From: Lachnospiraceae bacterium | GTDB lineage: Bacteria > Bacillota > Clostridia > Lachnospirales > Lachnospiraceae | NCBI GenBank assembly: GCA_017396555.1 | Contig: JAFQLS010000021.1 | Location: 1 to 64,000 of the forward strand | Length of the DNA stretch: 64,000 nt | Direction: 5' to 3' | Shown: one piece after another, positions 5,126 to 22,924 of the stretch | How the letters are laid out: every line of letters begins with the position of its first letter | Position numbering within the stretch: the stretch's first letter is position 1 | The notes under the pieces: model-generated | Told to the model about the DNA's origin: nothing | Databases searched by the model: none | The model's input: the letters and a program-made list of their open reading frames with translations, nothing else | Position numbers and translations under genes: made by a program

Positions 5126-5211
5126 TAATTCAATCCGACTTTTTTTGTATGAAAAAGTCGAGAAATGACTATAGCTTTTTGATAAGATAATAATGAACAG
5201 AGGTGATGAAT

Positions 5212-5991
5212 ATGAATATGCTGGAGTGCATGAATAAAACAATTGAATATGTTGAAGAACATTTGTTGGAAGAACTGCATATGCCGATGATTGCAAACGT
5301 AGCAGGAACTTCCGAAAGTGATATTCAGAAAACATTCTATGCTCTAACGGGTATTTCTATTGTGGAATATGTACGACGAAGACGATTATCATTGGCAGGA
5401 TATGAACTTCAAAAGGGAGAATGCTCTGTTTTGGAAGTAGCCCTAAAATATGGTTATACTTCGCCGGATTCCTTTACAAGAGCCTTTCGGCAAATGCATG
5501 GTATTACACCATCAGCGGTAAAGAAGGGCGGTTGTCTTTTAAAAGCATATGGAAAAATCACCTTTGTATTAACAATCAAAGGAGTTAATGCTATGAATTA
5601 CAGAATTGTAAAAAAATAAGAAATGCATATCATTGGTTTTAAAAAGTGGTTTTCTACGGAAAATGATAGTCAGATGACAGAAATCCCAAAGATGTGGGAT
5701 TCTGTTACAGAGGAAATGAAAGAAAAAATCACAGGATTAAGCAATAATGAGGGTGTTGTTGGATTGTGTGCTGATATGTATGACGGAGGTTTTGATTATT
5801 GGATTGGGTGTATGTCTGATGATAAGTGCCCGGAGGATTTGGAAGAAAAGATAATTCCTGCATCAACATGGGCGGTGTTTGAAATCATAGGTCCAATGCG
5901 TCCGTTACCAAATGCTATGCAGGATATCTGGAAACGTATTTATTCTGAATGGTTACCTAATTCGGGTTATGAACATGCCATGTTGCATTAA
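5212..5991 (+). pseudogene. AraC-family regulator with GyrI-like domain, broken by a nonsense codon
   Basis: Residues 1-100 are an AraC DNA-binding domain with two helix-turn-helix motifs (LHMPMIANVAGTSESDIQKT and VLEVALKYGYTSPDSFTRAF). The frame then hits TAA at 5617-5619 and continues without shift into a GyrI-like effector-binding domain (MHIIGFKKWFSTEND, QMTEIPKMWDSV, GFDYWIG, GYEHA). Relatives run through this point with Glu-Glu, so GAA changed to TAA. The 3' end is also short: the usual last 30 or so residues after GYEHA are missing. An ATG at 5212 with AGAGGTG upstream is the likely start; the frame also offers GTG at 5203. Two lesions make a working regulator unlikely, although the DNA-binding half could still be made. 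Confidence 0.75.
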
Positions 5992-6052
5992 AGAAGTTAA
6001 GCCGTTAAAGGTGATTGGAGTGTAAAAAAATAGTATTGCCGTAAAAAATGCA

Positions 6053-6081
6053 TTGAATAAGTGAATTACTGAATGTATAAT
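6053..6081 (+). promoter_or_regulatory. sigma-A-type promoter for the 6.1-8.9 kb operon
   Basis: TTGAAT and TATAAT with a 17-bp spacer lie about 70 bp ahead of the first gene, which has AAGGAG before its ATG. Confidence 0.55.
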
Positions 6082-6153
6082 AATATGCGAAGCAGACAGA
6101 GAAATGATTGGTTATGCTTTAAATTAAGTATATTTATAAAAGGAGATATTATT

Positions 6154-6693
6154 ATGGGTAATGAATCTACGATTTCTACGATGATTTTACTTATGGTGTA
6201 CATATTGGTGTTAGTATTTGTATTTGTTCTATCAATTGCTATGTGGATTGCGATGCAATATCCATTTTATAGGATGGCAAAGAGACAGGGAATAGAAAAT
6301 GCGTGGCTTGTGTTTGTACCTTGGGGAAATTATTATATAACTTTAAAACTTTCTCCTAGAGAATTTAATCTTTTTAATTTGATTAAATTTGAGAATCGTT
6401 CCAAGGCATTTATATTATTTATTATTGCAACCGCTATTTATATTGTATTAATCCTGCCTATGAGTCTTTTGTCAATGATTCCTATTTTGGGCTGGTTAAT
6501 TTTTCTTTTATATATTATGGCTTATTTGCTAATAAGTTATTCCATAATGTGGAGAATGTATTATGATGTATTAATTACTTATGGGATGGAAGAACATGCT
6601 ATGTGGGTATCTATTTTAGGTATTTTTGTTCCGATTGTAATAACGGTGTTTGCTTATATGATCATGAATAAGGAACCGGATATGTATGCATAA
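6154..6693 (+). CDS. Small multi-pass membrane protein, function unknown
   Basis: This protein of 179 residues has about four hydrophobic segments (near 10-35, 88-110, 113-135 and 150-172). Between the first two is a cytoplasmic-looking stretch with FYRMAKRQGIENAWLVFVPW, reminiscent of DUF5684-like membrane proteins where a Lys-rich helix precedes an aromatic re-entrant segment. The start at 6154 is chosen because AAGGAG lies 9 nt upstream; the frame is open further left without a site. It is the first gene of a likely three-gene operon with a CPBP protease 27 bp downstream. I do not recognise a specific function. Confidence 0.7.
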   Translation: MGNESTISTMILLMVYILVLVFVFVLSIAMWIAMQYPFYRMAKRQGIENAWLVFVPWGNYYITLKLSPREFNLFNLIKFENRSKAFILFIIATAIYIVLILPMSLLSMIPILGWLIFLLYIMAYLLISYSIMWRMYYDVLITYGMEEHAMWVSILGIFVPIVITVFAYMIMNKEPDMYA

Positions 6694-6720
6694 AAGTATA
6701 AAGATATATGGAGGCGTATT

Positions 6721-7698
6721 ATGATTAGAAAACCTGAAATGTTTAAGGAAGCGGAATCTGGTAGATTTAAAAATATTTTTATTCAGATACTGTTGTTCTT
6801 TACGGTATTTATGATAAGTAGCACCATACAATCAATTTTACCAACAATAATGATGTTATTTGATATGGTTGTGGAATTTAGTAAGATTGGAATGGAGCAG
6901 ATAGATAATAATGATATAGAGGCTGTTTTGAATACAGTAATGGCTGCTCAGAGTACAAGACCATATTTGCTTGTAATGTTATTTGTGACGATTTTTGGAA
7001 TTATTATACCGATTATTTTTTGTAAGTTTATTGAAAAAAGATCACTTACATCTATGGGATTTAAAAAGAAAAATGCAATTAGAGATTATATAATTGGTCT
7101 TGTGATTGGCTTTTTAATGTTTAGTGCAGTAATGCTTGTTAATATAATTACAGGCGCAATGAAAATAGATGGAATTAATAAAAATCTAAGTATAATTAGT
7201 ATTATATTTATTGTGATGTTTTTTATTGGTTTCGTTATTCAAGGGGCCAGCGAAGAGATTATGGTAAGAGGTTATTTTATGACCAGTCTTGGCTCTAAGC
7301 ACAATATGATTTTAGCGTTAATGATAAGTTCAGGAATGTTTGGACTTTTACACTTAGGCAATCCGGGATTTACATTCCTTGGTTTTGTAAATCTTATTCT
7401 TGTAGGTGTTTTCTTTGGTCTGTATATCATATGCTTTGATAATATCTGGGGTGCCTGTGCATTGCATTCGATATGGAATTTTGTTCAGGGTAATTTCTAC
7501 GGAGTGCAGGTAAGCGGACTTACTATGTCGGACAGTGTTTTAACAGCAAGCATAAATGAAAAAATGAAGCTTATTAATGGCGGGAGCTTTGGAGCTGAAG
7601 GTGGACTTGCAACAACAATTATTTTGTGTTTAAGTATTGGTGGGCTTTTAATTTATATGAAGGCTACAGGGAAAATTGTTAAGGAAAACAACTGTTAA
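6721..7698 (+). CDS. CPBP family intramembrane metalloprotease
   Basis: This protein of 325 residues has about eight membrane segments. The CPBP/Abi signature is complete: SEEIMVRGYF near residue 178 (EExxxR), FGLLHLGN near 211 (FxxxH) and ALHSIWNF near 251 (HxxxN). These Glu and His residues bind the catalytic metal in the membrane. Family members process prenylated proteins in eukaryotes; in bacteria many serve bacteriocin self-immunity or unknown proteolysis. TATGGAGGCG precedes the ATG. It sits between two membrane proteins of unknown function in one operon, so its substrate may be one of them. No bacteriocin precursor is visible nearby. Confidence 0.88.
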   Translation: MIRKPEMFKEAESGRFKNIFIQILLFFTVFMISSTIQSILPTIMMLFDMVVEFSKIGMEQIDNNDIEAVLNTVMAAQSTRPYLLVMLFVTIFGIIIPIIFCKFIEKRSLTSMGFKKKNAIRDYIIGLVIGFLMFSAVMLVNIITGAMKIDGINKNLSIISIIFIVMFFIGFVIQGASEEIMVRGYFMTSLGSKHNMILALMISSGMFGLLHLGNPGFTFLGFVNLILVGVFFGLYIICFDNIWGACALHSIWNFVQGNFYGVQVSGLTMSDSVLTASINEKMKLINGGSFGAEGGLATTIILCLSIGGLLIYMKATGKIVKENNC

Positions 7699-7720
7699 AT
7701 TATAGTTTGAGGTAACAACA

Positions 7721-8881
7721 ATGAACAAATTTGAAGATAAAAAAGAAGCTGCAAGATGGGTGTTTGCAGTATTGATTAGTTTTTTCGTTTGTACAGGACT
7801 AGCATGGCTTATACCGCATTTATATAAAAAGACAGGTCAGTTAGTATTTTATTTACTAGATGTTTGGTACAATGATTCTTTATCTGTGGTGATATTTTTC
7901 TTGATTGCGGTCGTTTTAGGCTCATATGTATTTGAAAAAAAGGAAAAAAGAGGAAGCCTTAAATCAACATTAAGAATATTCTTTGTAATCGCCTTGGTAT
8001 ATGTATTCTTTGTTAATATATTTGGTGTATCCAGAAGATATGAGGATGTATTAATAGATGGAAAGAGCCCATCCAAATTTGTTTACAAACACAATATATT
8101 TATGGATGTAATTGCTGGAAAGACAAAATTAAAAGAAATACCGGTGGAAAATATAAGTACTGATATAAGTAGCTATAGCATTAGTTCAAGAAGAAGTACC
8201 AGCAGCTATATATCGTATTATGTAATATTTAATATCGATAATAAAAAGTATTCATCATACGAATCGCGAGGATTAAGTGTATGCATTGATAATTTGATAG
8301 ATAATAAAGATACATTATTAATCGAATATTATCCGCATACAGGAATAATAAAATCTGTTGATGGTATAAACAAAAATGATATTCATGAATTAGCAGGTTA
8401 TGCTGGTAGAGTTGAAAATGAAGTAATAAAGGAACAACAAAGAATAGAACAGGAATCAATAAAAAAAGAGGAAGAAGAAAGAGAAAAATCAGCTACAGAA
8501 TATACGGTATTAAGTAGTTCGATTGGTAAAAATTTTGCAGAAATAGAAGCAATGCTATCAGAGAAAAAAATACCACCTACATATGAAATAGTATACATAA
8601 GTTCAAAGATGTATGAAACAAATACTATCGCATTTTATGATGATGATATTGTATACGTGGTTAAGGATAATTTGAGTGAAGATTTAATTCCAATTCCAAG
8701 AATTGTTGAGGGAATGACAAAAGAACAGATTATTAATATTTTAACTGAAGCTGGATTTTCCTATGAATGTGATGAATCTGAATGTGATTCTCACGGAAGG
8801 AATAGATTACATACCAAGGGCCATGCAAATGGAGAGTATGTACCAAGGCAACATAAGGTGTGGTTTTCGGTTGATAAATAA
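7721..8881 (+). CDS. Membrane protein with extracytoplasmic region, function unknown
   Basis: This protein of 386 residues has three hydrophobic segments in the first 110 residues. About 115 residues of mixed character follow (GVSRRYEDVLIDG and onward). Residues 225-255 are Glu/Lys-rich and probably helical. The C-terminal segment includes VEGMTKEQIINILTEAGFSY, a pattern seen in PASTA-like repeats (G-x-S/T-x-x-E-A-x-x-x-L-x-x-A-G). The start has GAGGTAAC upstream and lies 22 bp after the CPBP protease gene, so it is co-transcribed. I do not recognise the family as a whole. Confidence 0.65.
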   Translation: MNKFEDKKEAARWVFAVLISFFVCTGLAWLIPHLYKKTGQLVFYLLDVWYNDSLSVVIFFLIAVVLGSYVFEKKEKRGSLKSTLRIFFVIALVYVFFVNIFGVSRRYEDVLIDGKSPSKFVYKHNIFMDVIAGKTKLKEIPVENISTDISSYSISSRRSTSSYISYYVIFNIDNKKYSSYESRGLSVCIDNLIDNKDTLLIEYYPHTGIIKSVDGINKNDIHELAGYAGRVENEVIKEQQRIEQESIKKEEEEREKSATEYTVLSSSIGKNFAEIEAMLSEKKIPPTYEIVYISSKMYETNTIAFYDDDIVYVVKDNLSEDLIPIPRIVEGMTKEQIINILTEAGFSYECDESECDSHGRNRLHTKGHANGEYVPRQHKVWFSVDK

Positions 8882-8948
8882 ATTTGAGTGTCTGTGTTTG
8901 TATACTTCTATTTCAATAATTACAAAGTCTACTTAAATGTAACAAAAT

Positions 8949-8980
8949 TGGCGGTCGAACATGACCGCCATATTCTTATT
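8949..8980. terminator. Bidirectional terminator between convergent genes
   Basis: A perfect 8-bp stem (TGGCGGTC with GACCGCCA) and a short loop have T-rich sequence on both sides. It can serve the membrane operon on the plus strand and the leucine-rich repeat gene on the minus strand, whose stop codon lies at 8976-8978. Confidence 0.75.
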
Positions 8981-11594
8981 TTATTTTTACAGATTTTACA
9001 GTGCTCCAGTTAGAATAAACCTTTTTGCCATTTATCTTACTGTATGCTTTTACCTTAAAGAAATATTTCTTTCCTTTTGTAAGTTTAGTTTTCTTATATG
9101 AAGTATTTTTTGAAGTAGTAGTCTTTATTTTCTTATAAGTACCTTTCTTTGATGTTGACATATATACTTCATATCCGGTAGCGCCTGCTACCTTTTTCCA
9201 AGTAATCTTTGCCTGTTTCTTTTCGGCTGTTACCTTTATAGTTGGTGCAGTAGTCTTTGTTGACATAGCTGTAACAGAAGAATAATCGCCATATATTTTT
9301 TCGCCATTTACTGTTTTATAGGCACGTACTTTGTAATAATATGTTGTTCCGGCTTTTAATTTACTATTCTTATATGTTGTTGATGAAGTAGATGCAACCT
9401 TTGTATATTTTCCATTTTTAGATGTTGATCTGTATACCTCATATCCGGTTACACCAACAGATTTTTTCCAAGTCATACTAATGGATTTAGTATCATATGA
9501 TGTTTTCTGTTTTAATGTAGTTACCTTTGCAGGCTTTATAACAAAAGCATTTGCTATAGTCTTTGTTCCTGTATAATTGCCTTTTCCTGTTACTACTACT
9601 TTTGCTTTTCCTGGATTAATATTATTACTATATACAACCTTATAATCTACGCCTTCTTCAAGCTTTACACCATCACACATAACTGTGATAACGGAAGTTT
9701 TTGCCTTTCCATCATAAACATATGATTTTGATTCGACAACGGCTGATGTAATATTGAAAGGTGTAATTGTAAATGTCTTTGTAACAGTTCCACAATAGTA
9801 CTCTTTTCCTTTTATTATAACACTTGCTGTTCCGGCATTTACGTTATTTGTATATGAAAATGTATAGTCAACTCCCTCTTCAAGAACCTTTTCTTCATGC
9901 ATAATAGTTACTTCCGGCTCTTTTGTCTCACCATCATATTTGTATGTAGATTCAGATATTGATATCTGTGTTTCTGTCAATGGTGTAGATGTACATTGCC
10001 ATATAATACTGTTATCGTCAGCATATTTATGTGCATATGCATCGTGATTACTATAAATAGTAAGCTTATCATCATAACCAAAAGCATCTTTGTGTATTGT
10101 AGTTACACTGTTAGGTATATAAATGTATTCCAATTCATCACATGAACCAAAGGCAGCTTTTTCTATAGTTGTTAATCCTTTTGGTATCTCTATACGTGTA
10201 AATTTTATACAACTATCAAACGCACATTCACCTATAATTGTAACATCATCAGGAATTGTTACATTACCTAATAATACACAATTAGAAAATGTATATGGCT
10301 CTATTCTGGTTAATCCACTTGGCAATTCAATACTTTCTAATTTACCACAATGAGAGAATGCAGCTCTTCCTATCTCTGTTACTTCTCTAGGTATATTAAT
10401 TGTATTCAGTTCCCAACAATCCTCAAAAGCAGATGCTCCTATACCTGTTACGGTTGAAGGCAATACGATTTCCGTAAGTTCAGAGCAACCCTTAAAAGCA
10501 TAATCTCCTATGCTTGTTATTCCTTCTTGAAGACTGATGTTATCTAATTTCCAACAGCCACTAAACAAGCCATCATTTATACTTGTTATTCCCTCTGGAA
10601 TTTCAATGCTATTGAGACTCATACATCCTGAAAAAGCATAATCTCCTATTGACTCTATTCCCTGTGGAAACTGCATAGTTTTTAAACTGAGACCCTCTGC
10701 AAAAGCATATTTACCTATTTCTATTAAGTCTGTTGATAATGTCACTTCTTCTAGTTGTGAATCAAAAAAAGCATAATCCCCTACTTTAGTTACTCCATTT
10801 GGAATAATATATGATACAGCAGGTAATGTCTCTTCAGTTTCTAAATAAGCTTTAGGGCATTTTACCAAACAGGTTTTATCCTCGTTAAATAAAACTCCAT
10901 CTACTGACGAATATGTTTCATTTTCCTCTGCAACTACAATACTTCTTAGCGTACTAATATTTAATGCTTCTACATCTACATTTTCTAAATCTTTGTGAAT
11001 ATTTATAGATGTTATTTTTTCACAGTTTTTAAATGCACCTTTTTTTACATTTACTACAGTTTCTGGAATTGTAAATTCATTTTCATAAGAATTTGTAACA
11101 AATAATAAAAATGTCTTGTCCTTATTATATAGAATTCCATTTTCAGAAGTATAACGCTCACTATTTGCTGATACAATAAACTCTGCTAACTTGAAGCATT
11201 CGCTGAATGCATATTCGCCTATTTGTGTAACATTTTTAGATATAGTTACGCTTTCAATATCAGATAGTGAAAATGCATAATCTTCAATAGTTGTTACTGT
11301 ATCAGGTATTATTACACTTTTTACTTCTGATCTAAAAAATGTCTCCTTACCAATTACTGTTACTGTCTTACCATTTACAACTTCAGGTATAGTAACTTCT
11401 TCCTCAGAACCTGTATAACTTACAGCTTTGACAGTGGAGTTATCAATATCTTCAAACGTCCAATTTTCTAATGAATTCTCTTCAGCTGCATATACAGTTT
11501 CTTTTGCAATGTTTAATATTCCATTTTCCATAGGCACTACGGATGCTGAAAAAATCATCATTGCAATTAAAATACTTAAATTTTTTCTTTTCAA
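8976..11594 (-). CDS. BspA-type leucine-rich repeat surface protein with Ig-like and FN3 domains
   Basis: This secreted protein has 872 residues. Residues 1-35 form a signal peptide ending near VYA-AEE. Residues 55-520 hold many LRR_5 (BspA/Treponema type) repeats of about 23 residues with the core IGDYAFSGC and IEIPEGITSI. Residues 540-695 hold two Ig-like/MBG modules (YKYDGETKEPEVTI and YVYDGKAKTSVITV). Residues 695-872 are two fibronectin III domains, each with an ATGYEVY-type strand, ending in a Lys-rich tail. No sortase signal or membrane anchor is seen, so it is probably released or held by charge. It starts with TTG, 9 nt after AAGGAGG. Proteins like this bind host or plant surfaces; the ligand here is unknown. 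It is monocistronic and convergent with the membrane operon. Confidence 0.88.
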   Translation of the reverse strand: MKRKNLSILIAMMIFSASVVPMENGILNIAKETVYAAEENSLENWTFEDIDNSTVKAVSYTGSEEEVTIPEVVNGKTVTVIGKETFFRSEVKSVIIPDTVTTIEDYAFSLSDIESVTISKNVTQIGEYAFSECFKLAEFIVSANSERYTSENGILYNKDKTFLLFVTNSYENEFTIPETVVNVKKGAFKNCEKITSINIHKDLENVDVEALNISTLRSIVVAEENETYSSVDGVLFNEDKTCLVKCPKAYLETEETLPAVSYIIPNGVTKVGDYAFFDSQLEEVTLSTDLIEIGKYAFAEGLSLKTMQFPQGIESIGDYAFSGCMSLNSIEIPEGITSINDGLFSGCWKLDNISLQEGITSIGDYAFKGCSELTEIVLPSTVTGIGASAFEDCWELNTINIPREVTEIGRAAFSHCGKLESIELPSGLTRIEPYTFSNCVLLGNVTIPDDVTIIGECAFDSCIKFTRIEIPKGLTTIEKAAFGSCDELEYIYIPNSVTTIHKDAFGYDDKLTIYSNHDAYAHKYADDNSIIWQCTSTPLTETQISISESTYKYDGETKEPEVTIMHEEKVLEEGVDYTFSYTNNVNAGTASVIIKGKEYYCGTVTKTFTITPFNITSAVVESKSYVYDGKAKTSVITVMCDGVKLEEGVDYKVVYSNNINPGKAKVVVTGKGNYTGTKTIANAFVIKPAKVTTLKQKTSYDTKSISMTWKKSVGVTGYEVYRSTSKNGKYTKVASTSSTTYKNSKLKAGTTYYYKVRAYKTVNGEKIYGDYSSVTAMSTKTTAPTIKVTAEKKQAKITWKKVAGATGYEVYMSTSKKGTYKKIKTTTSKNTSYKKTKLTKGKKYFFKVKAYSKINGKKVYSNWSTVKSVKIK

Positions 11595-11719: not shown

Positions 11720-12145
11720 ATGCACAAAAAATTTATGATAAGGGTAAATATAAAATCAAGAGAGGTAGACTTATTTTGGTTTTTTGTTATTTACTATGAT
11801 TATAAAAGAAATAGATTTAGGACTAAAAGATTACTCTTAAATAAGGATGAAGAATTTATAGTATCAGGAATATATCAATGTTCAAATGATGCGGGTAAAG
11901 CAGATGAGATTATAGCCGAATTAGAGAATACATTTGTACTTGGAACTATTATGACAATACTATTATCAGATATGCTTGTAGGTTCAATATTTAAAATGTT
12001 TGGATTATATAACTATTAGTCTGATACAGTGTTGATATCGGTACTAATTCCGTTTGTATTTATGATGTTTGTATATTATGCGGTATCATATATAATAGCA
12101 GGAAAAATAAAGAGGGTAACACCTAGAGTTTTAGTAACTGAGTAG
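11720..12145 (+). pseudogene. Remnant of an FtsX-like ABC permease
   Basis: A frame of 99 residues (MHKKFMIRVN, KDEEFIVSGIYQCSN, FVLGTIMTILLSD) stops at TAG 12017-12019. It continues in the same frame for 41 more residues (SDTVLISVLIPFVFMMFVYY, then IKRVTPRVLVTE). The tail, a hydrophobic segment then a basic stretch and L-V-T-E, is typical of the C-terminus of FtsX/MacB-type permeases. The large N-terminal part of such a permease is missing, and there is no ATPase partner gene here. I read it as a truncated and nonsense-mutated relic. Confidence 0.55.
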
Positions 12146-12222: not shown

Positions 12223-13761
12223 TTGTTTGCAATCAATTCGAAATTCAAAGAAAAACTAACGGAGACGTTAAAAGCCGTTGTTCCAATACTTGCAATAGTG
12301 CTAATCCTGTGCTTTTCAATTGCACCTATTCCACCAAGTATATTGATGTCTTTTTTGATAGGGGCAGGACTTTTAATAATAGGAATGCTTTTGTTTAATG
12401 TAGGAGTTGAATTATCAATGACGCCTATGGGAGAAAAAGCAGGTTCGATAATTACTAAATCGAAAAAAGTATTAATAATAGTAGCAATCAGTTTTATTAT
12501 GGGGTTTATTATTACTATTTCAGAACCTGATCTGCAGGTACTTGCGGCGCAGGTTCCATCTGTTCCTGATTTAACACTTATCTTTGCGGTGGCATTTGGT
12601 GTTGCTATTTTTTTGGTTTTAGCAATACTGCGTATGTTGGTAGGTGTGTCCTTATCGTATATATTGGTAGTTTTATATACAATAATATTTACACTGGTAT
12701 TTTTTGTGCCAAGGGATTTTTTATCAGTAGCATTTGATTCAGGTGGTGTTACTACGGGACCTATGACGGTGCCGTTTATTATGGCATTTGGTATTGGTAT
12801 TTCGGCAATCAGAAGTGATAGACGAGCTTCGGATGATAGTTTTGGTCTTGTATCGATGTGCTCGGTTGGACCGATTCTTGCAGTGCTTATTTTAGGATTT
12901 ATATATAAGCCTGAATCGACGGAACAGGTTTCAGAAGCGATACCTATTATAGATAATACGGTTGATTTGTGGAAAGCATTTGCTGTAGAATTTCCTCATT
13001 ATTTTAAAGAGATGGCATTATCATTACTGCCTATTGTCGTGTTTTTTACTCTGTTCCAATTGGTTTCAAGAGAAATTAACAGACATTCACTAATTAAAAT
13101 AACAGTCGGTATTGTGTATACATATATTGGTCTTGCTTTGTTTTTAACAGGTGTTAATGTAGGCTTTATGTCGGCAGGAAATTATCTTGGACAGACTATT
13201 GCGGAATTGTCATATTCGTGGATTATCGTTCCTATTGGTATGGTGATTGGATATTTTATAGTATTGGCAGAGCCGGCAGTGTTTGTACTGACTAAGCAGG
13301 TTGAAGAAATGACCTCAGGAGCTATTTCTGCAAGAGCTATGGGACTTAGTTTGTCAATTGGTGTATCTGTATCAGTTGGATTAGCTATGATTAGGGTATT
13401 GACAGGAATATCAATCTTGTGGTTTTTGATTCCGGGGTATTTACTTGCGCTGTCAATAACATTTTTTGTACCAAAATTATTTACAGCTATTGCGTTTGAC
13501 TCAGGAGGGGTTGCTTCCGGTCCGATGACGGCAACCTTTTTGCTTTCATTTGCAATGGGAGCGTGTGAGTCGCTTGGTGGAAATATAATTACAGATGCTT
13601 TTGGTATTGTATCAATGGTTGCGATGACACCTTTGATTACCATTCAGATAATGGGTCTGATATATAAGTTTAAAGAAAAGAAGCTTCACAAGTCGGCAGC
13701 AGTTGAAAATATTGTGCCTGCAAATGAAATTTATGAGGATATAGAAATTATTGAATTATAG
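12223..13761 (+). CDS. DUF1538 integral membrane protein (internally duplicated)
   Basis: This protein of 512 residues has about 14 hydrophobic segments. It is made of two homologous halves: the signature FDSGGVTTGPMT near residue 171 recurs as FDSGGVASGPMT near 425, each followed by a hydrophobic helix (FIMAFGIG, FLLSFAMG) and later by FGLVSM or FGIVSM. This matches the DUF1538 family, thought to be cation or solute transporters of the cytoplasmic membrane, often coded beside PII-like proteins. The start is TTG with AGAGG upstream. It is the first gene of a five-gene operon that ends with homospermidine synthase, so transport of a polyamine, a precursor or a counter-ion is a reasonable guess. 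The substrate is not shown by the sequence. Confidence 0.85.
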   Translation: MFAINSKFKEKLTETLKAVVPILAIVLILCFSIAPIPPSILMSFLIGAGLLIIGMLLFNVGVELSMTPMGEKAGSIITKSKKVLIIVAISFIMGFIITISEPDLQVLAAQVPSVPDLTLIFAVAFGVAIFLVLAILRMLVGVSLSYILVVLYTIIFTLVFFVPRDFLSVAFDSGGVTTGPMTVPFIMAFGIGISAIRSDRRASDDSFGLVSMCSVGPILAVLILGFIYKPESTEQVSEAIPIIDNTVDLWKAFAVEFPHYFKEMALSLLPIVVFFTLFQLVSREINRHSLIKITVGIVYTYIGLALFLTGVNVGFMSAGNYLGQTIAELSYSWIIVPIGMVIGYFIVLAEPAVFVLTKQVEEMTSGAISARAMGLSLSIGVSVSVGLAMIRVLTGISILWFLIPGYLLALSITFFVPKLFTAIAFDSGGVASGPMTATFLLSFAMGACESLGGNIITDAFGIVSMVAMTPLITIQIMGLIYKFKEKKLHKSAAVENIVPANEIYEDIEIIEL

Positions 13762-13792
13762 AGAGTCGTGTTTTTTAACAGGAAAGGGATAT

Positions 13793-14470
13793 ATGGGAAA
13801 TTTATATTTAATGACAACGATTGTTAATCGTAAAGATGCAAAAAAATATATTGAAATTTTTAATGAGAATAATCTACATGTTATGTATTTGACACTTGGA
13901 TTAGGAACAGCATCTAATGAAGTATTAGATTATATGGGATTGGATTCACAGGAAAAAGCTGTTGCATTTTCTGTTATTGAAGAGAGTACATGGAAAATCA
14001 TTAAGAAACGTATGGAAAGAGATTTGAAGATTGACGCACCGGGTGGTGGGATTTCATTTACAACACCATTAAGTAGTATTGGTGGAAGACGTACACTCGA
14101 ATTTTTGTTAGAAGACCAAAATTATCAGAAGGAGGCAGAAACAACATTGAAGAATACTAAACATGAACTTATAGTTGTTATTGCGGAACAGGGTTATACA
14201 AATTTGATTATGGATGCAGCGAGAGGTGCCGGAGCGTATGGTGGTACGGTTATTCATGCTAAAGGAACGGGGATGGAATTAGCAGAAAAATTCATGGGTG
14301 TATCGCTTGCAGTTGAAAAGGAAATGGTGTTCATAGTGACTAAGTCGGAGCAAAAAAATGATATAATGAAAGCAATAATGAAGGAGGCAGGTTTAGATAG
14401 TAAAGCAAAATCAATTGCTTTTTCAATGCCTGTTACTGATACTGCGGGGCTTAGACTTATAGAGGATTAA
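13793..14470 (+). CDS. Double-domain PII-like regulatory protein
   Basis: This protein has 225 residues. Two similar ferredoxin-like halves (about 1-105 and 115-225) resemble PII/GlnB-like proteins. Each half has a beta strand start (LYLMTTIVNR; ELIVVIAEQG) and a small-residue loop (GLGTASNEVLDYMGLDS; ARGAGAYGGTVIHAKGTG) placed where the T-loop and nucleotide site lie in PII proteins. Classical PII is about 112 residues and trimeric; a fused pair is unusual. The start at 13793 is chosen for AGGAAAGGG just upstream. It lies 31 bp after the DUF1538 gene, and such PII-like proteins are known neighbours of membrane transporters, so it probably senses a nucleotide and gates the DUF1538 protein. 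The ligand is unknown. Confidence 0.75.
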   Translation: MGNLYLMTTIVNRKDAKKYIEIFNENNLHVMYLTLGLGTASNEVLDYMGLDSQEKAVAFSVIEESTWKIIKKRMERDLKIDAPGGGISFTTPLSSIGGRRTLEFLLEDQNYQKEAETTLKNTKHELIVVIAEQGYTNLIMDAARGAGAYGGTVIHAKGTGMELAEKFMGVSLAVEKEMVFIVTKSEQKNDIMKAIMKEAGLDSKAKSIAFSMPVTDTAGLRLIED

Positions 14471-14473
14471 AAT

Positions 14474-15694
14474 ATGAAACTAGTACCGATACCAAGAGAA
14501 AAATTTGAAGAATATAGAATTAATCTTATGTTTGACTGTTATAAATGGGATCCGCAATTTTTGGATAATAATACTATTGCAAAATATGCGTTGGTATTGA
14601 CACAGGAAGAGCATAAAGAACTGGAAATGCTTACGGAAAGCATAGATGTAGAAACAAGAAATGCAGAAGAGTTTTTGAATAGCAATCTTCATTTGGCAAA
14701 GCCTTTGGGACTTTCAAGAAAGGTTAGAAATGAGATTACTAAGATGAAGAATTATGAACCGGAAGCGCATATAAGACTAATGAGATACGATTTTCATCCA
14801 ACTATAGAGGGTAAGTGGGCAGTAAGTGAGGTTAATAGTGATGTACCGGGAGGATTTGCAGAAGCATCATTAATGCCTGAATTAGTCCTCGGTGTGGTGG
14901 AGGAAAATGATTTCCGTTTTATATGCTTTGGCGATATTTTGACAGAAGCCATTTTAAAGAAGGTAAAGAGAAATGGTCGTATTATGCTTGTGCATTGCAC
15001 CTCGTATAGTGATGACAGACAGGTTATGCAATTCCTTGGTGATAGATTAACAAAAGAGGGATTTGAGATTATTTATGGTGCAGCAGACCATTTGAATTTT
15101 AGAGATAACAAAGCAATTAGTATACTTGATGGTAATGAAGGAGAAGTAGATGCAATAATCAGATTTACTCCTTTGGAATGGCTTGTGGATATCAAACCAA
15201 AACGTTGGCAGGGATATTTTGATACTATTACAGTATCGTGTAATCATCCTGTTGCCATTTTTGCGCAAACCAAGAGATTTCCACTTATTTGGAATACTCT
15301 TGAAAATAACGGGATTAATATGTCTACATGGAGGGAGTTGCTTCCGGAAACAGTAGAGGTAAAACAGGCAAAGGGAAGAGAAGGATTTATTTACAAGCCG
15401 GCATATGGAAGAGTGGGTGAAAGAATTTCTATAAAGGAAGCTTGCAGAGGGGATGAATATAAGAAAATCTTATCAGATGTAAGATTACATCCTAAGAAAT
15501 ATTTAGCTCAAAGGAAGTTTAATAGCAAACCGCTTAAAGGTGAGAATGATGAAGAATTCCATGTGTGTATCGGTTCGTATACCGTAGATGGCAGACATGC
15601 CGGTTATTATGCAAGAATTAGTGATTTGCCACGTATAGATTCACATGCTGCGGATATACCTGTATTGATTGAAGGGAATGATGAAGATGAATAA
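14474..15694 (+). CDS. Glutathionylspermidine-synthase-like ATP-grasp enzyme
   Basis: This protein of 406 residues is similar in length and layout to the stand-alone GSP-synthase domain proteins (YgiC/YjfC type). Signs are YKWDPQFLD near the N-terminus, VSEVNSDVPGGFAEAS near 117-132, and ATP-grasp elements GFIYKPAYGRVGERI near 305 and AQRKFNSKPL near 343. These enzymes use ATP to form an amide between a carboxylate and an amine; in the named family member the amine is spermidine. There is no amidase domain. It begins 3 bp after the PII-like gene. With homospermidine synthase in the same operon, a polyamine amide is the likely product; the acid partner is unknown. Confidence 0.75.
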   Translation: MKLVPIPREKFEEYRINLMFDCYKWDPQFLDNNTIAKYALVLTQEEHKELEMLTESIDVETRNAEEFLNSNLHLAKPLGLSRKVRNEITKMKNYEPEAHIRLMRYDFHPTIEGKWAVSEVNSDVPGGFAEASLMPELVLGVVEENDFRFICFGDILTEAILKKVKRNGRIMLVHCTSYSDDRQVMQFLGDRLTKEGFEIIYGAADHLNFRDNKAISILDGNEGEVDAIIRFTPLEWLVDIKPKRWQGYFDTITVSCNHPVAIFAQTKRFPLIWNTLENNGINMSTWRELLPETVEVKQAKGREGFIYKPAYGRVGERISIKEACRGDEYKKILSDVRLHPKKYLAQRKFNSKPLKGENDEEFHVCIGSYTVDGRHAGYYARISDLPRIDSHAADIPVLIEGNDEDE

Positions 15695-16337
15695 TAAAGA
15701 AATATATAGAATCTGGGCTCCATATGGTAAAAAATGGGTTGATTGGGTCAGACCTGTTCCGTTTGTTAGTGTTAATGAATATTCAAGAAATTATAATTAT
15801 ATGAATATGATGGTTCCGAAAGTTAATTATTTAGATGATAGTTATGAAGGAGCTGCTATAATTGTAGACTTACCCGGAGCAGAGAGTGTAATGGAAGGTC
15901 TTGGACTTGCCAGAAAGGGATATAGACCGATACCCATTTACAACGGAACGATAGAGCAAAAGGATTCAAGGGCTACTGTAGATAATCAGACTGTAGGTGC
16001 AGCACTTGTATGGGGAGCTGCACAGTTAAGTCAAATAGAAATAAAAGATGATGCATTGCCTGTATTTTTACTTGATAAAAATAGAATGAATAGATTTAAA
16101 ATGCAGATTTCATTATTTGATAACAGCTGGGATATTTATCATCAGGATTTGCCCTCGGCAGAATATTTTATAGAAAATAATATAAAGAAGATTATTATAA
16201 TAGGAAGTTCTGTTTCAAAGGATTTGAAAAAAATTCTTTATGGATTTCAAAAGAAAAAAATTCAAATATATTTGGCTAAGAACTATGATGAGCCAAAGAT
16301 ATTTAGAATAAGAAAGCAATTTCAAAAGGATATATAG
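15687..16337 (+). CDS. Conserved protein of the polyamine operon, function unknown
   Basis: This protein of 216 residues overlaps the end of the ATP-grasp gene by 8 bp, so the two are translationally coupled. The ATG at 15687 is preferred because GAAGGGA lies 9 nt upstream; ATGs at 15678 and 15681 are alternatives. The sequence looks like a soluble alpha/beta fold: YEGAAIIVDLPGAESVMEGL near 55, GYRPIPIYNG near 80, PVFLLDKNRMNRFK near 125 and KKIIIIGSSVSKDL near 175. There is no signal peptide or membrane helix, and I do not recognise a family. Its fixed place between two polyamine-type enzymes suggests a partner or accessory subunit. Confidence 0.6.
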   Translation: MNNKEIYRIWAPYGKKWVDWVRPVPFVSVNEYSRNYNYMNMMVPKVNYLDDSYEGAAIIVDLPGAESVMEGLGLARKGYRPIPIYNGTIEQKDSRATVDNQTVGAALVWGAAQLSQIEIKDDALPVFLLDKNRMNRFKMQISLFDNSWDIYHQDLPSAEYFIENNIKKIIIIGSSVSKDLKKILYGFQKKKIQIYLAKNYDEPKIFRIRKQFQKDI

Positions 16338-16347
16338 GAATGTAAAA

Positions 16348-17820
16348 ATGATTAAATTTGATGGAAGAATTGTTCAATTTGGATTTGGTGCCGTTGGCAA
16401 GAGCTTTTATGAAAAGGTATCAAAGGAAATAAAATTTAATGAAAATAAATATATTGTTATTACGAGAGAGAAGGCAGAGTTTCACGATTATATAAATCTT
16501 GGCGGTTTGGTTAGCAATTTTGTAGTTGGAGAAGTGAAAAGAGAGAACTTCAAGGAAGTATTTGGATTTTATTTAAGTGAAGGAGATTTGCTTATTGATT
16601 TTGCAGATACTGTTGGAACCAGAGATATTTGTGAGTGGTGTGCTGAAAATAACATTATGTATATTAATACGGGAGAGGCTGACTGGCCGGATCATTGGTA
16701 CAGCATTTTCGAAGAGAATGATTTAAAGCATATTCTTAAAGAGAAATGCAAAAATGAAGATGAAATGAATAAATATCCAATTGTTTTGCATCATGGAAAT
16801 AATCCGGGACTAGTATCGCATTTTGTAAAAGCGGCGATTACATATGTTGTTAATACTCAGTTTAAGAAGGATAAACAACTTAAGAATCTTGTGAAAAACA
16901 ATCAGTTTAATGAGGCTGCAAAAATTTTAGGCTTAAGGCAGATACATGTTAATGATATTGATTTGCAGGAGGTTAAGGATGAGTATAATGATAAACTGCT
17001 GTTTAGCACATGGTGTACAGATTCGTTTTGGTTTGAAATGCTAAGCGAGGCAACAGTAAATATTGGTACCCACGAAGAAATAGATTTTTCAAATGAATGT
17101 AATTTTGTTGATTATGAAAAAGGCTATTTGGAATTTAAGAAGATTGCAGCAGATAAGAAATGCAGGACATATTATCCGGGAGGAAGATTTGAGGGATTTA
17201 TGGTACCGCACGAAGAAACTGTATCAATAGCTAAGAGTCTGGAGGTTAAAGAGAATGGAAAGGTCGTATACAGACCAACTGTGATGTTTTTGTATTCGCC
17301 ATGTGTATATGCAACTGATTATTTTAAAAATGCGAAGGTGAATGACTATCCTATGCCTGATATATCTAAGCCAATGGACTGCGAAAATGTTGATGGTAAG
17401 ACTATTATACGTGGATATGTGTATCCGCAAAATTTCGAAATTGTGTATAAAGAGAAAATTGCATCAGGGACAGAGTATGTAGGTATATTGCTTATCGGAG
17501 ATAATTTTGAGCCTGTTTGGGTTGGGAACAGAATTGAGATGCCTTATTTATATAAAAATAAAAAGGAATCATTTTGGCAGACACCAACAATTACACCGGT
17601 TGCAATGTCTGCACTTGCAGCTGTTTGCTGGATGTTAACAAATAAAGAAAAAGGAGGAATATATTTTCCGGATGAGATAGAGGATTATAATTACATTATA
17701 AAAAAAGCTGAAAAATATATATCCAAAACCTTATACAAAACATTTTCAAAAAAAGAGATTGAAGATAATCTAAAAATTAATTTTAAAAATATACAGATGA
17801 AGGATTTATTTGCAGAATAA
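16348..17820 (+). CDS. hss: Homospermidine synthase
   Basis: This protein of 490 residues is close to the usual 475-490 of bacterial homospermidine synthase. The N-terminal Rossmann fold has the NAD-binding GFGAVG at residues 12-17. Family-typical segments are FADTVGTRDICEWC, NTGEADWPDHWYS, LHHGNNPGLVSHFVK near 148-162 and TPTITPVAMSALAAVCWML near 412. The enzyme joins two putrescines, or spermidine and putrescine, to sym-homospermidine using NAD as a transient hydride acceptor in the cytoplasm. It is the last gene of the DUF1538/PII/ATP-grasp operon, 10 bp after the previous gene; lemA follows 45 bp later with its own AAGGAGG. No agmatine or putrescine synthesis genes are in the window. Confidence 0.85.
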   Translation: MIKFDGRIVQFGFGAVGKSFYEKVSKEIKFNENKYIVITREKAEFHDYINLGGLVSNFVVGEVKRENFKEVFGFYLSEGDLLIDFADTVGTRDICEWCAENNIMYINTGEADWPDHWYSIFEENDLKHILKEKCKNEDEMNKYPIVLHHGNNPGLVSHFVKAAITYVVNTQFKKDKQLKNLVKNNQFNEAAKILGLRQIHVNDIDLQEVKDEYNDKLLFSTWCTDSFWFEMLSEATVNIGTHEEIDFSNECNFVDYEKGYLEFKKIAADKKCRTYYPGGRFEGFMVPHEETVSIAKSLEVKENGKVVYRPTVMFLYSPCVYATDYFKNAKVNDYPMPDISKPMDCENVDGKTIIRGYVYPQNFEIVYKEKIASGTEYVGILLIGDNFEPVWVGNRIEMPYLYKNKKESFWQTPTITPVAMSALAAVCWMLTNKEKGGIYFPDEIEDYNYIIKKAEKYISKTLYKTFSKKEIEDNLKINFKNIQMKDLFAE

Positions 17821-17865
17821 CAGAATAAATGCTATAATGCTAATATCACGTTAAGGAGGTTTAAT

Positions 17866-18426
17866 ATGGAAAAATATATCGGTTTAATTTGTGTAATTGC
17901 AATTGTGATTGTAATTGCGGTATTTGTTATTGCTACATACAATAGCTTGATACGTTTAAGAAATAGGGTTAAGAATTCATTTGCACAAATTGATACACAG
18001 CTACAGAGAAGATTTGATTTGATTCCTAATTTGGTAGAGACTGTTAAAGGCTATGCATCGCACGAAAAAGAACTGTTAGAAAGTATTACGGCAAGTAGAA
18101 CAGGATTTATGAATGCAGGCTCGAATGGTGAAAAGATGGATATGGATAACCAGTTAACATCAAGCTTGCGAACACTATTTGCAGTAGCAGAGAATTATCC
18201 GGATTTAAAAGCTAACAAAAACTTTGAAAATCTTCAGAACGAGTTGTCGGAGACAGAGGATAAGGTTGCATATTCAAGACAATTCTACAATGATTCAGTA
18301 ACGATGTATAATGATAAGTTACAGATGTTTCCCACAAATATAATTGCAGGAATGTTTGGATTTAAAGAAGAAGCTTTATTTGCTACAAGCGAAGAAGCAA
18401 AGGAAGCTCCAAAGGTTCAGTTTTAA
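17866..18426 (+). CDS. lemA: LemA family membrane-anchored protein
   Basis: This protein of 186 residues has one N-terminal membrane helix (5-25) and then the LemA signature YNSLIRLRNRVKNSFAQID and QLQRRFDLIPNLVETVKGYA, followed by helices with FPTNIIAGMFGF near the end. It is an anchored helical-bundle protein of unknown molecular role, usually coded beside a DUF2207/YgcG-type protein. Here that partner is convergent across a terminator rather than in the same operon. AAGGAGG lies 8 nt before the ATG. It is 45 bp after hss and might receive read-through from that operon. Confidence 0.92.
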   Translation: MEKYIGLICVIAIVIVIAVFVIATYNSLIRLRNRVKNSFAQIDTQLQRRFDLIPNLVETVKGYASHEKELLESITASRTGFMNAGSNGEKMDMDNQLTSSLRTLFAVAENYPDLKANKNFENLQNELSETEDKVAYSRQFYNDSVTMYNDKLQMFPTNIIAGMFGFKEEALFATSEEAKEAPKVQF

Positions 18427-18440
18427 TATTAGATAAAAAA

Positions 18441-18474
18441 GAGTTTGCACTTTTCAAAATGCAAACTCTTTTTA
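18441..18474. terminator. Bidirectional terminator between lemA and the DUF2207 gene
   Basis: A perfect 9-bp stem (GAGTTTGCA with TGCAAACTC) is flanked by A-rich sequence before and T-rich sequence after, so it works in both directions between convergent genes. Confidence 0.85.
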
Positions 18475-18491
18475 TTTGTTTTAGTAATTGT

Positions 18492-20783
18492 TTAGTGACC
18501 GCCGCCACCGCCGCCGCCACCACGACCGCCGCCGCCGTATCCGAAACCGCCGCCACCGCCGCCACTATATGAACCGGAGCGTGTAGCAGAACGTAATCTT
18601 CGACCGGTACGTCTGAATCGTCCTGAACGATAATAATTGTTGCTAAGTATTTCGCTTTCTGATGCCTCGGGACATCTGATGCCTATAGCTTTTATTACTT
18701 TTTCTGAGATACCAAATGCAGTAGCATATATCAGGTATTTTTCCCATAATGGCAATTCAACAAAGGTACGTTCGTTGATAAGTGTATTACTATTTAAGAA
18801 ATTATATAAGCCTCTCCATTTTGCATATTCATCTTCGCCATATTGTGTTAGTAGGATATGTTTGTTAGCCTTTTTATTAAGGAATATAGATGCAATAATA
18901 CAACATACACCAATAATGGTATAGGAACCAAATGCAAGGTCAAGTCGTGTATGATATGAAATAATATTTGCTAAAATTATAAATGCTAATCCACAAATAA
19001 ATAAGGTTTTGCTTGATGATTTTAAATTGTTTCTAGGTTGCTTATAATTTGCTTTTTGGAAGTAACCGTCTCTTACACCAATTGTAACAACTGAGCTATC
19101 TACATTTTTAACAAATGTAGTGGTGTTCTCATAATCAGTTGAAACGCGTGATTGGAATTTGCTCATTAATATTGAGTTATTAACTGCGTGACGAACAATC
19201 AAGTTGAAGTAGTATTGTTCAGTAGTTGTAAGTGGTTCGTACTCAATAGCCGGTTCTTCATAAGCCACATCAGCTTCGGCTGAATTAGTAACAGTTTCAT
19301 CAAATGGAGCCCAAGGAGCCGGATTAAGTGTAGGTTCAGCTACAGTAGTTTCAGCGGAAGGGGTTTCCACAATAGGGGTTTGTTCAGGTGGTATATCCCA
19401 TTTAAAGTCAGGGTCAAATCCTATGTCATTCATGCCAAATGGCGTTTGCTCGTTGGATTGTACAGGAGTTTGAGCTGTTGAAAATGCTGAATCTGACTGA
19501 GTTAGTGGAGCCGGAGCTTTAGGAGGGTTTTTAATTAATATTTCAATATCTGAATTTCCTATTTCTCTAAGCTCAATATATTTCTTTCGTGCAAGGCTAA
19601 GAAGTATGGCTGAATAAATACCTGAGTCATCTTTTGGTTCCTTGTGTTTACAAAATACAAGACTGGCAGCAAAGTTAGGATCTAAATCACTAGGAATATC
19701 TCTGTATAAATCTATCTCCGTGTCCGGTTTGTAGAATACATATTTTGATTTTAACCTTAATTTATATGTAAATGCATATATGAGTATAACTATTGAACCT
19801 AGTATCAATACTACAAACACAATCGTTTTTATACGTTTATATTTTGCAGGAGTATCAATATAATCCTGTTGCTCATCTAATATCTCCGTAAGCACGTCAT
19901 CAAAATAATAATCATTATAAGATGCGTATTCAGTAAATATATGTTTATCTTCGCCATATGCTACTAAGTCAAATTCAATGTATTCATTGTATGGCTTGAA
20001 TTGCAGCTGTTCCTCATTCAGTTCAAACGAAAAAGTATGGTAGCCGGGATTTACACTGTCCGATTCTGTGACAGGGAATGTATTGGAATTTGTACCATAT
20101 GTAGTATAGGTATAATTTCCTTTCGCCGGCATCTTGTCGTTAGGAATAAGTATTTCTCCCTTTAAGGATTCAAGGTGCTCTATAGTATCTCCTGAATAAA
20201 GTGACAAATATAAATCGGAACAGTCATTATATCTTAGTGCAGCATTATTCATTTCGTACTCGATTTCAAATACCATTTCTTCGCGATATACACCATCTAT
20301 ATAGAAAAATACACATTCATACCTTTGCATATCTTCATCATATGGTCCTTCGCTGTGATACCATTTACCGGGACCGTATTCTGTATTCCAATTAACATAA
20401 TCGTAATCATCCCAATATAATTTATCACTTTCCTCATAAATGATTTCGCTTCCATCAGGAAGAATCTGTTTTACAGAATTAACCTTGTAATCTATTTTTA
20501 CGCCATCGTAGTAATCTTCACAGAGATCACGCCATAATTCCCAAAAGGGATTGCTTTTTGAGGCGGCATGGATATCAAAGGTTAAACGTTCTGTAATCAC
20601 TACTTTACCATTACTTCCGGGTTCATCAACTACCTCGGCACGGTATTCTACATCTGTTATTCTTGCATAGTCATTAGGATTTAGGCTTGCATCTTCTGAA
20701 CTGAGAATTGCCATAAGCAAAGGAAGTCCAAAGTTAATGACTATAACTAGAACAACGATAATTGTGACTAGTTTGTTTCTCAT
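18492..20783 (-). CDS. DUF2207 membrane protein with glycine-rich tail
   Basis: This protein has 763 residues. An N-terminal membrane helix (3-23) is followed by an extracytoplasmic DUF2207 region (about 30-300, with ERLTFDIHA and VNPGYHTFSFELNEEQLQF), then a helix near 325-345, a cytoplasmic or linker part rich in Pro/Thr/Glu (420-520), two more helices near 615-660 and a tail from about 735 of Arg/Ser then almost pure Gly with Tyr, Phe and His. The GC-rich gly codons stand out from the AT-rich surroundings. The start at 20781-20783 is preferred to one 15 codons upstream because AAGAAGG precedes it. DUF2207 proteins pair with LemA, as here; the role in envelope function is unproved. Confidence 0.85.
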   Translation of the reverse strand: MRNKLVTIIVVLVIVINFGLPLLMAILSSEDASLNPNDYARITDVEYRAEVVDEPGSNGKVVITERLTFDIHAASKSNPFWELWRDLCEDYYDGVKIDYKVNSVKQILPDGSEIIYEESDKLYWDDYDYVNWNTEYGPGKWYHSEGPYDEDMQRYECVFFYIDGVYREEMVFEIEYEMNNAALRYNDCSDLYLSLYSGDTIEHLESLKGEILIPNDKMPAKGNYTYTTYGTNSNTFPVTESDSVNPGYHTFSFELNEEQLQFKPYNEYIEFDLVAYGEDKHIFTEYASYNDYYFDDVLTEILDEQQDYIDTPAKYKRIKTIVFVVLILGSIVILIYAFTYKLRLKSKYVFYKPDTEIDLYRDIPSDLDPNFAASLVFCKHKEPKDDSGIYSAILLSLARKKYIELREIGNSDIEILIKNPPKAPAPLTQSDSAFSTAQTPVQSNEQTPFGMNDIGFDPDFKWDIPPEQTPIVETPSAETTVAEPTLNPAPWAPFDETVTNSAEADVAYEEPAIEYEPLTTTEQYYFNLIVRHAVNNSILMSKFQSRVSTDYENTTTFVKNVDSSVVTIGVRDGYFQKANYKQPRNNLKSSSKTLFICGLAFIILANIISYHTRLDLAFGSYTIIGVCCIIASIFLNKKANKHILLTQYGEDEYAKWRGLYNFLNSNTLINERTFVELPLWEKYLIYATAFGISEKVIKAIGIRCPEASESEILSNNYYRSGRFRRTGRRLRSATRSGSYSGGGGGGFGYGGGGRGGGGGGGGH

Positions 20784-20931
20784 TTTCAACCTTCTTTCGA
20801 CATAATATTTGATTTTAGTATATAACAAACATAAGAAAGTGTAAAGTATTCTGAAACAAAAGTAGATTGTTAATGCAGAATGGTGAATAAGGTGGTAAAA
20901 TATATTTATATAATGTTTGAGGAGTGCTCGA

Positions 20932-22209
20932 ATGAAAACAGATATAATAATAAGAGATATAGAAAATGGGAAGTATGATGAGGTATTTATAGATATATAT
21001 GCTGATACGGCCTGTATTGATTGTCAAAAGAAAAGGTACATAGATGCTGTTAAAAAATTTGAGGAGATTTATAACGAAAAGGAAGTGCAGATATTTAGTG
21101 CACCCGGAAGGTGCGAGATAGGCGGAAATCATACAGACCATCAGAATGGAATTGTACTTGCAACTGCTATTAATCTGGATGCAATAGGAGTAGTTTCGGG
21201 TAATTCTGATAATAAGGTCAACATTGCTTCAGAAGGTTTTGGAGTAATTCATATTTCGTTAGATGAATTAGGAGAAAGAACAGATGAAAGGGGAAGCACG
21301 AAGGCGCTTGTTAAAGGTGTTTTGTCTGAAATGTCTAAATGCGGATATATAGTAGGAGGCTTTGACGTTTATATAACAAGTGACGTGCCGATGGGCTCGG
21401 GTTTGTCATCCTCAGCATCTTTTGAGGTGCTTATCGGAACAATAATATCCGGTTTATATAATGATATGCAGATTTCACCGGTTGAAATAGCAATGATGGG
21501 TCAATCTGCTGAGAATAAATATTTTGGTAAACCATGTGGCTTAATGGATCAAATGGTATGCGCTATAGGGAATGTGGTGCTTATTGATTTTTTGGAAATT
21601 GATAGTATAAAAGTAGAAAAGATAAATATTGACTTGGATAAGTGTGGATATAGTCTTTGTATTACTGATACCAAAGGCAGCCATGAGAACCTTACAGATG
21701 AATATGCATCTATACCTATGGAAATGAAAAATGTCGCAAAGCATTTTGGAAAGCTAACATTACGCGGCATTACTAAAGAAATGCTCACTAAGGATATAAA
21801 TGTTCTTAGAGAAACTGTAGGTGATAGAGCAGTGTTGCGCAGCCTACATTTTGTTACTGAAAATGATAGAGCCTACAGGGAAGCTGAATATTTAAAAGAA
21901 AACAATATTAAGGCTTTTTTGAAAGAGGTAAATGCATCGGGTAATTCTTCGCATAAATATCTTCAAAATATATATTCAAGTACTAAAGTGCAAAGCCAGG
22001 CTGTGACATTGGCATTAGGATTTAGTGAAGAAATACTTGAAGATGATGAGGCATGCAGAGTTCATGGTGGCGGATTTGCCGGAACAATTATAGCATTTGT
22101 AAAAAAAGAAAATGAGATTTTGTACATAAAAGAAATGGAGAATATATTCGGTGCAGGTTCATGTAAAACCTTGAAAATAAGAAAATATGGTGGTATTAAA
22201 GTGTTTTAA
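20932..22209 (+). CDS. galK: Galactokinase
   Basis: This protein of 425 residues is a GHMP kinase that phosphorylates alpha-galactose at C1 with ATP (Leloir pathway, cytoplasm). Signatures are the galactose-binding APGRCEIGGNHTDHQNG (near 56-72), the ATP loop VPMGSGLSSSASFE (near 152) and the third motif RVHGGGFAGTI near 380. It is about 35 residues longer than typical GalK at the N-terminus, which I have seen in related Clostridia. The ATG at 20932 has GAGGAGTG upstream. galT and galE are not in the window, so it is not part of a full Leloir operon. Confidence 0.93.
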   Translation: MKTDIIIRDIENGKYDEVFIDIYADTACIDCQKKRYIDAVKKFEEIYNEKEVQIFSAPGRCEIGGNHTDHQNGIVLATAINLDAIGVVSGNSDNKVNIASEGFGVIHISLDELGERTDERGSTKALVKGVLSEMSKCGYIVGGFDVYITSDVPMGSGLSSSASFEVLIGTIISGLYNDMQISPVEIAMMGQSAENKYFGKPCGLMDQMVCAIGNVVLIDFLEIDSIKVEKINIDLDKCGYSLCITDTKGSHENLTDEYASIPMEMKNVAKHFGKLTLRGITKEMLTKDINVLRETVGDRAVLRSLHFVTENDRAYREAEYLKENNIKAFLKEVNASGNSSHKYLQNIYSSTKVQSQAVTLALGFSEEILEDDEACRVHGGGFAGTIIAFVKKENEILYIKEMENIFGAGSCKTLKIRKYGGIKVF

Positions 22210-22711: not shown

Positions 22712-22924
22712 GGAAAATGTTTTTTAACATTTTTATATAAAAATAATAATAGAAGTGTATGTCTATATTTTAAATTATAATGTGTAAAAAAGGAGGTATT
22801 GGCAGGCGGGTTTACTGTGATTTGAAATATATAGACCCTATTTCGTCGTCGGGGGTTTCTATTATCTATTTTGTATATGTTTTGTGTTTTGAAATTGTAT
22901 ATTATAAAAATAGGAGAGAGAAAA
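22712..22924 (+). promoter_or_regulatory. Long, partly structured 5' leader of the amylase mRNA
   Basis: About 210 nt without a gene. It contains AGGAGG at 22791-22797, followed at once by a possible 8-codon TTG-started frame (LAGGFTVI), and a hairpin formed by ATAGACCC with GGGTTTCTAT (8 pairs, two bulged bases) around 22845-22868. It then runs AT-rich to the true AGGAGAG site. It does not match a riboswitch I know. Confidence 0.4.

Follow-up and report, generated by a model that had tools for sequence, protein, structure and literature searches.

The stretch of DNA analysed here, referred to as the window, comprises 64,000 nucleotides of contig JAFQLS010000021.1 from the 2.34-Mb draft genome (85% complete) of a Lachnospiraceae bacterium. 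Between nucleotides 12223 and 17820 its forward strand carries five closely packed genes, the last three of which specify a YgiC/GspS-like ATP-grasp acid–amine ligase (14474–15694), a protein of 216 residues, here called UNK (15687–16337), and a homospermidine-synthase-like NAD enzyme (HSS; 16348–17820). Together with a convergent DUF2207 membrane protein that marks the conserved end of the cluster (18492–20828, reverse strand; PF20990, 94.7 bits) and an optional LemA family protein (17866–18426, forward strand; PF04011, 205 bits), these form a real, conserved and probably polyamine-conjugating module. The two genes in front encode a double DUF1538 membrane protein (12223–13761) and its double PII-like partner (13793–14470), which belong to a separate pair. 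A check of the open reading frames (ORFs) of the window returned the same five genes as the initial annotation, with gaps of 31, 3, −8 and 10 bp, and the family names given there were upheld by Pfam, NCBIfam and solved-structure matches. Its outline of the system held in the middle, where polyamine enzyme, ligase and UNK stand together, but not at either end, the DUF1538–PII pair having been included and the DUF2207 gene missed.

Relatives of the module were collected through UNK. A scan of GTDB species genomes gave eight loci, and whole-genome searches with a UNK profile found matches in one of 299 genomes of the phylum (the source genome alone), in three of 299 genomes of the family (one genome per genus, source genome included) and in six of 213 genomes of the order of a Bacilli metagenome-assembled genome, two of these being already in the species scan and one a fragment with stops. 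The resulting set of 14 loci in 13 genomes (the window, L003 to L010, L023, L024, L102, L103 and L104), from which a UNK fragment in genome G738 was excluded, was picked by similarity to the UNK of the window and is therefore biased to its kin. The ligase gene lies immediately 5' of UNK in 13 of the 14 loci (exception L004), and that of HSS immediately 3' in 11 (exceptions L006, L009 and L023). A convergent DUF2207 gene comes next, with or without LemA, in 12 loci (exceptions L006 and L023), LemA itself being present in four. In the ten loci with ligase, UNK, HSS and DUF2207 together the gaps between ligase and UNK run from −23 to 9 and those between UNK and HSS from −23 to 45, as measured from mechanical starts. 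The enzyme cluster with its unrecognised third protein is kept far beyond this genome, so that the refuting condition named in the initial annotation, a neighbourhood found in no other genome, does not apply. The distance matrices of ligase, UNK, HSS and DUF2207 are correlated (Mantel r 0.50 to 0.80, p at most 0.0008), which fits a unit that is inherited together; plain vertical descent would give the same.

Within the family, the UNK and ligase profiles match the same three of 299 genomes (G000, G331 and G368). G000 carries both by selection, and the coincidence of the other two amounts to one in 44,253 under independence by our own arithmetic, in which kinship is ignored. Four family genomes match the HSS profile: the matches in G000 and G368 are strong, and those in the other two are to distant HSS-like proteins. 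A genome-wide profile search gave no HSS match in two ligase–UNK carriers, G331 and G599, both of which may be incomplete. Since ligase and UNK co-occur with or without HSS, they are the core pair, and HSS is the usual third gene.

The departures from the common order deserve mention. L004 and L006 lie on one contig and represent a split module, its parts about 19 kb apart and UNK present twice: UNK, HSS, LemA and DUF2207 follow a MiaB-like radical SAM gene (PF04055, UPF0004) in L004, and ligase and UNK follow a MatE gene in L006. L023, from G331 (5187–10662, reverse strand), reads DUF350, ligase, UNK, then a Crp-like regulator and a hybrid-cluster (prismane) protein, an order which ties UNK to the known pairing of DUF350 with ligases. 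It is the only locus with DUF350 beside the ligase among the neighbours scanned.

The 406 amino acid ligase possesses a GSP_synth domain (PF03738, 69 bits; cut-off 29.3), is assigned to YgiC by profile, and gave a structural model matching YjfC (Foldseek 4.9e-14), GspS and YgiC; the best of five models, with a predicted local distance difference test score (pLDDT) of 70, was the only fair one. An alignment of 23 sequences was made from 13 UNK-linked ligases, nine chosen from 29 other loci of the phylum, and the ligase of phage Motura. Residues R104, D106, E119, N121, P125, K308, R313 and G315 are kept in at least 22 of the 23. These fall in the R-x-D, E-x-N-x-D/E-x-P and K...R-x-G patterns, which we take to be catalytic in GspS/YgiC ligases, and by this alignment the ligase retains its catalytic residues. 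No Pfam match to the GspS amidase domain was found along its length, in which it differs from bifunctional GspS; YgiC and YjfC are likewise single-domain, judging by the chain lengths in the fold matches. The likeness to E. coli YgiC, YjfC and GspS is one of fold and catalytic residues, whereas identity in the fold matches is 15–17%, and the window ligase has loop motifs of its own and a tie to UNK. UNK-linked ligases carry the sequence DVPGGFAE (DVPGGLAE in L023) in place of the DTPT-type loop of most others, and are also marked by DDRQVMQ and a C-terminal PRIDS-like block. The tree splits the 13 UNK-linked from the 10 other ligases, that of Motura among the latter, by a long branch with support of 1.0. 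HSS and a ligase have probably been brought together on more than one occasion. Peptide–spermidine ligase activity is cited for E. coli YgiC and YjfC (PMC12568646), and YgiC is described as being without GspS activity (PMC12506659). Two further GSP_synth proteins, of 867 and 822 amino acids (L038:1-2604 and L039:1489-3957), one with two GSP_synth matches and both with membrane-anchored proteins behind them, are possible fused double ligases.

UNK matched no family in Pfam, NCBIfam, PHROGs or PADLOC, in keeping with the initial annotation, which had recognised none. Nine aligned sequences share 44 invariant residues, including W10, W17, W20, R22, D61, N86, N100, D130, R133, N135, D145, N146, W148, D149, Q153 and D154. 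Because neither cysteine nor histidine is among the invariant residues, the protein would suit a binding or partner role more than that of a Cys or His hydrolase. Its model is of alpha/beta type (pLDDT 79), falling below 50 at residues 135–150. A listed defence role was not supported by the PADLOC comparison. A weak match to the UNK profile in G738 (L105, G738:C36:6211-6492), with four stops and on a 9-kb contig that holds no module genes, is possibly a decayed copy.

HSS contains a Sacchrp_dh_NADP domain (45.5 bits; cut-off 25.1) and matches solved homospermidine synthases (2ph5, E-value=4.5e-38; 14 HSS chains with E-values of 2.6e-23 or better). The active site was compared in an alignment of 16 rows using Blastochloris numbering. 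Asn162, Trp229, Glu237, His296 and Glu298, five of the seven catalytic residues, are invariant in all 16, and the redox chemistry has likely been kept. Distant HSS-like proteins of 447 and 450 amino acids occur in L025 (8350–9693) and L026 (8066–9418), with Asp at position 210 and Asp or Gly at 117; the family genomes that hold them have no matches to the ligase or UNK profiles.

The reading we favour, to which we give about an even chance, is that the unit of ligase, UNK, usually HSS, and DUF2207 makes a polyamine and couples an acid to it. HSS would join diamines on bound NAD to give a homospermidine-like triamine. The ligase would convert the carboxylate of an acid (a peptide, an amino acid or another) into an acyl phosphate and couple the acid activated in this way to the amine made by HSS. 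UNK may act as a dedicated partner of the ligase, binding or delivering a substrate or forming a complex with the enzyme. A function of the product in the cell envelope is probable, since the recurring neighbours are membrane proteins (DUF2207, LemA and, in one locus, DUF350).

Several points weigh against this reading. The reactions of ligase and HSS, the identity of acid and amine, and the role of UNK are predictions from sequence, and the fold search with the UNK model gave no clear relative. The co-occurrence found in the family is favoured by the make-up of the ligase profile, for which UNK-linked ligases were used. HSS is missing beside ligase and UNK in three of the 14 loci, and the amine may therefore come from elsewhere. 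An OKR-type decarboxylase (PF01276), one possible source of putrescine, was found in four of 13 carriers, the source genome included. HSS itself is changed at positions 210 and 117, where exchanges cost the Blastochloris enzyme all or nearly all of its activity: E210A, E210Q, E210K and E117K are inactive and E117Q keeps 1.5% of activity, E210D not being among these variants (PMC8489232).

These substitutions bear on a second possibility, somewhat less probable than the first, that HSS uses cadaverine, agmatine, an amino acid or a mixed pair to build a different amine, which the ligase then conjugates in place of homospermidine. Glu210, which lies at the inner amino site, and Glu117, at the entrance (PMC8489232), are both present in three proteobacterial or phage HSS; in the clade of the window protein Glu210 is replaced by Asp in all 11 members, and Glu117 by Ala in eight and Thr in three. 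Since two residues that handle the substrate have changed, homospermidine can be named only as a putative product. Extra residues in the C-terminal part of the HSS clade, fewer in L010, also favour a different amine, as does the unclear source of putrescine in most carriers. The search for amine supply comprised PF02784 and PF01276. For PF02784 the source genome gave one match above the cut-off, an ORF of 419 residues which is presumably diaminopimelate decarboxylase. Against a changed substrate, the charge at 210 is preserved by Asp, position 117 has acidic neighbours (Glu110 and Asp112 of the window protein), and the other five catalytic residues are intact.

The downstream end of the module, which had been overlooked, raises another alternative. 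DUF2207, sometimes accompanied by LemA, is kept in the 12 loci noted above. The ligase might attach the polyamine to a protein or an envelope polymer in place of a small acid, with UNK presenting the target. The recurrence of membrane proteins (DUF2207 in 12 of 14 loci, LemA in four, DUF350 in L023) argues for such an arrangement, and PSP-linked operons with related ligases have been proposed to act on membranes (PMC11237479). The characterised relatives act on small peptides, however (PMC12568646), and the examined neighbourhoods showed no substrate gene that recurs, so that we regard a polymeric target as rather unlikely. LemA–DUF2207 pairs are found in unrelated settings (PMC12631010), and the end of the cluster may for that reason be a common pair that stays beside the module; yet in the 12 loci with DUF2207 the other flanks have almost nothing in common.

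The two genes at the front of the operon have a history of their own. The DUF1538 protein contains two full copies of its domain (PF07556, 461.3 bits, cut-off 22.6; the copies at 8.5e-72 and 2.0e-69). The PII-like gene, with an ATG start at 13793 in a mechanical ORF that begins at 13751, specifies a PII-family protein as judged by a P-II domain (PF00543, 36.2 bits; cut-off 25) on its C-terminal half. Its halves align with each other (hhalign probability 98.8, E-value=4.6e-17), and in a relative (L071:2221-2908) the protein is split into two ORFs of 117 and 109 amino acids, confirming that the doubling is genuine. DUF1538 occurs in 76 of 250 family genomes, among them the ligase carriers G000, G331 and G368. 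A PII-like gene adjoins it in 29 of the 30 best DUF1538 loci, the remaining locus being a gene fragment at the start of a contig. No ligase, UNK or HSS was seen in these 30 loci, of which 20 of the 29 span 579–798 bases beyond PII and nine end within it. G331 and G368 hold DUF1538 and the module on different contigs, and the pair stands ahead of the module in two of the 14 loci, the window and L003. Given this distribution, DUF1538–PII is an independent, common pair and not part of the conserved module, and the five-gene operon therefore consists of two modules that came to lie head to tail in the lineage to which the window and L003 belong. In the view of the initial annotation, transport by DUF1538 and sensing by PII would belong functionally to a single regulated system of five genes for homospermidine conjugation. 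The tight spacing and the gene order shared with L003, the closest relative found, agree with this view, but the distribution just described, set against a ligase profile that matches three of 299 family genomes, makes it improbable.

The pair probably acts as a nucleotide-regulated cation transporter which was added to the front of the operon in that lineage. UmpAB is cited as a DUF1538 cation/proton antiporter (PMC7221264), and the window protein resembles it in having two DUF1538 units, here in one chain. It differs in scoring 163.7 and 135.5 bits against NCBIfam equivalog cut-offs of 490 and 500, and in being paired with a double PII-like protein. A literature search for DUF1538 together with PII gave a co-mention in which "PII" was a run of letters inside a sequence motif.

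The link between homospermidine and an amide ligase, which the initial annotation could not name, has a precedent. Clustering of hss and gss is described for Achromobacter phage Motura and beta-proteobacteria, with glutathionylhomospermidine as the proposed product (PMC9992855); as in the window, a homospermidine synthase gene lies near that of a GspS-like ligase. In Motura, however, a DUF1190-like protein (20.9 bits, just below the cut-off of 22) and DUF350 surround the cluster, and its ligase scores 480.6 bits to GSP_synth compared with 69 for that of the window. Pfam scans of Motura, on which the UNK profile was not run, showed no UNK-family match. Operons that combine polyamine ligases with DUF350 and membrane-stress genes are also published (PMC11237479). 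The PspA/DUF350/DUF1190 operons are similar in placing a ligase with polyamine and membrane genes, and DUF350 adjoins the ligase in L023. The window differs in having HSS in place of S-adenosylmethionine (AdoMet) decarboxylase or aminopropyltransferase, and no match to PspA, DUF350 or DUF1190 was found among the 15 window proteins scanned. Literature searches on these exact terms turned up no paper that joins glutathionylspermidine, ATP-grasp and homospermidine synthase, nor one that joins homospermidine synthase with Firmicutes and horizontal gene transfer; glutathionylhomospermidine was named in one paper. Within the reach of these searches, the new elements are UNK, the divergent clades of ligase and HSS, the DUF2207 gene at the end, and the finding that DUF1538–PII stands apart.

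The carriers are draft genomes of about 1.0 to 4.0 Mb from Lachnospiraceae, Clostridia and Bacilli, and that so rare a module has been kept as a unit speaks for a specific metabolite. The module provides three pieces for study: a protein without a family profile, a ligase clade with seemingly intact chemistry and its own loops, and an HSS clade whose contacts to the substrate have changed. Through them it could be learned whether Gram-positive gut bacteria conjugate polyamines to serve the envelope, the role proposed for PspA-linked systems. A bolder version, for which we see a small chance, is that UNK represents a new family of partner subunits giving the ligase a new acid or amine, that HSS has a shifted substrate, and that an undescribed conjugate modifies or protects the Gram-positive envelope in some gut Lachnospiraceae and small-genome Bacilli.

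The limits of transcription were considered as well. The single likely promoter of the initial annotation was not demonstrable, since 40 promoter-like matches were obtained against 32.9 (sd 5.5) in shuffled sequence, near chance. lemA starts 45 bp after hss, and the transcription unit may run on into it, although a promoter-like site matching 10 of 12 positions lies in front of lemA (17809–17838). Between lemA and the convergent DUF2207 gene a strong hairpin with T tracts (18430–18478; −17 kcal/mol, z −4.44) is a probable terminator. A consensus terminator scan, whose matches were near shuffle level, did not list it.

Ahead of the DUF1538 gene lies an ORF of 99 amino acids (11720–12019) which matches no family in Pfam or NCBIfam and for which blastp gave no counterpart in the relatives' loci. 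Further upstream is a BspA-type leucine-rich repeat protein with fibronectin type III domains (8976–11594). On the far side of the module, a galactokinase-like gene (20917–22209) precedes one for an alpha-amylase with four CBM26 starch-binding stretches (22871–25543).

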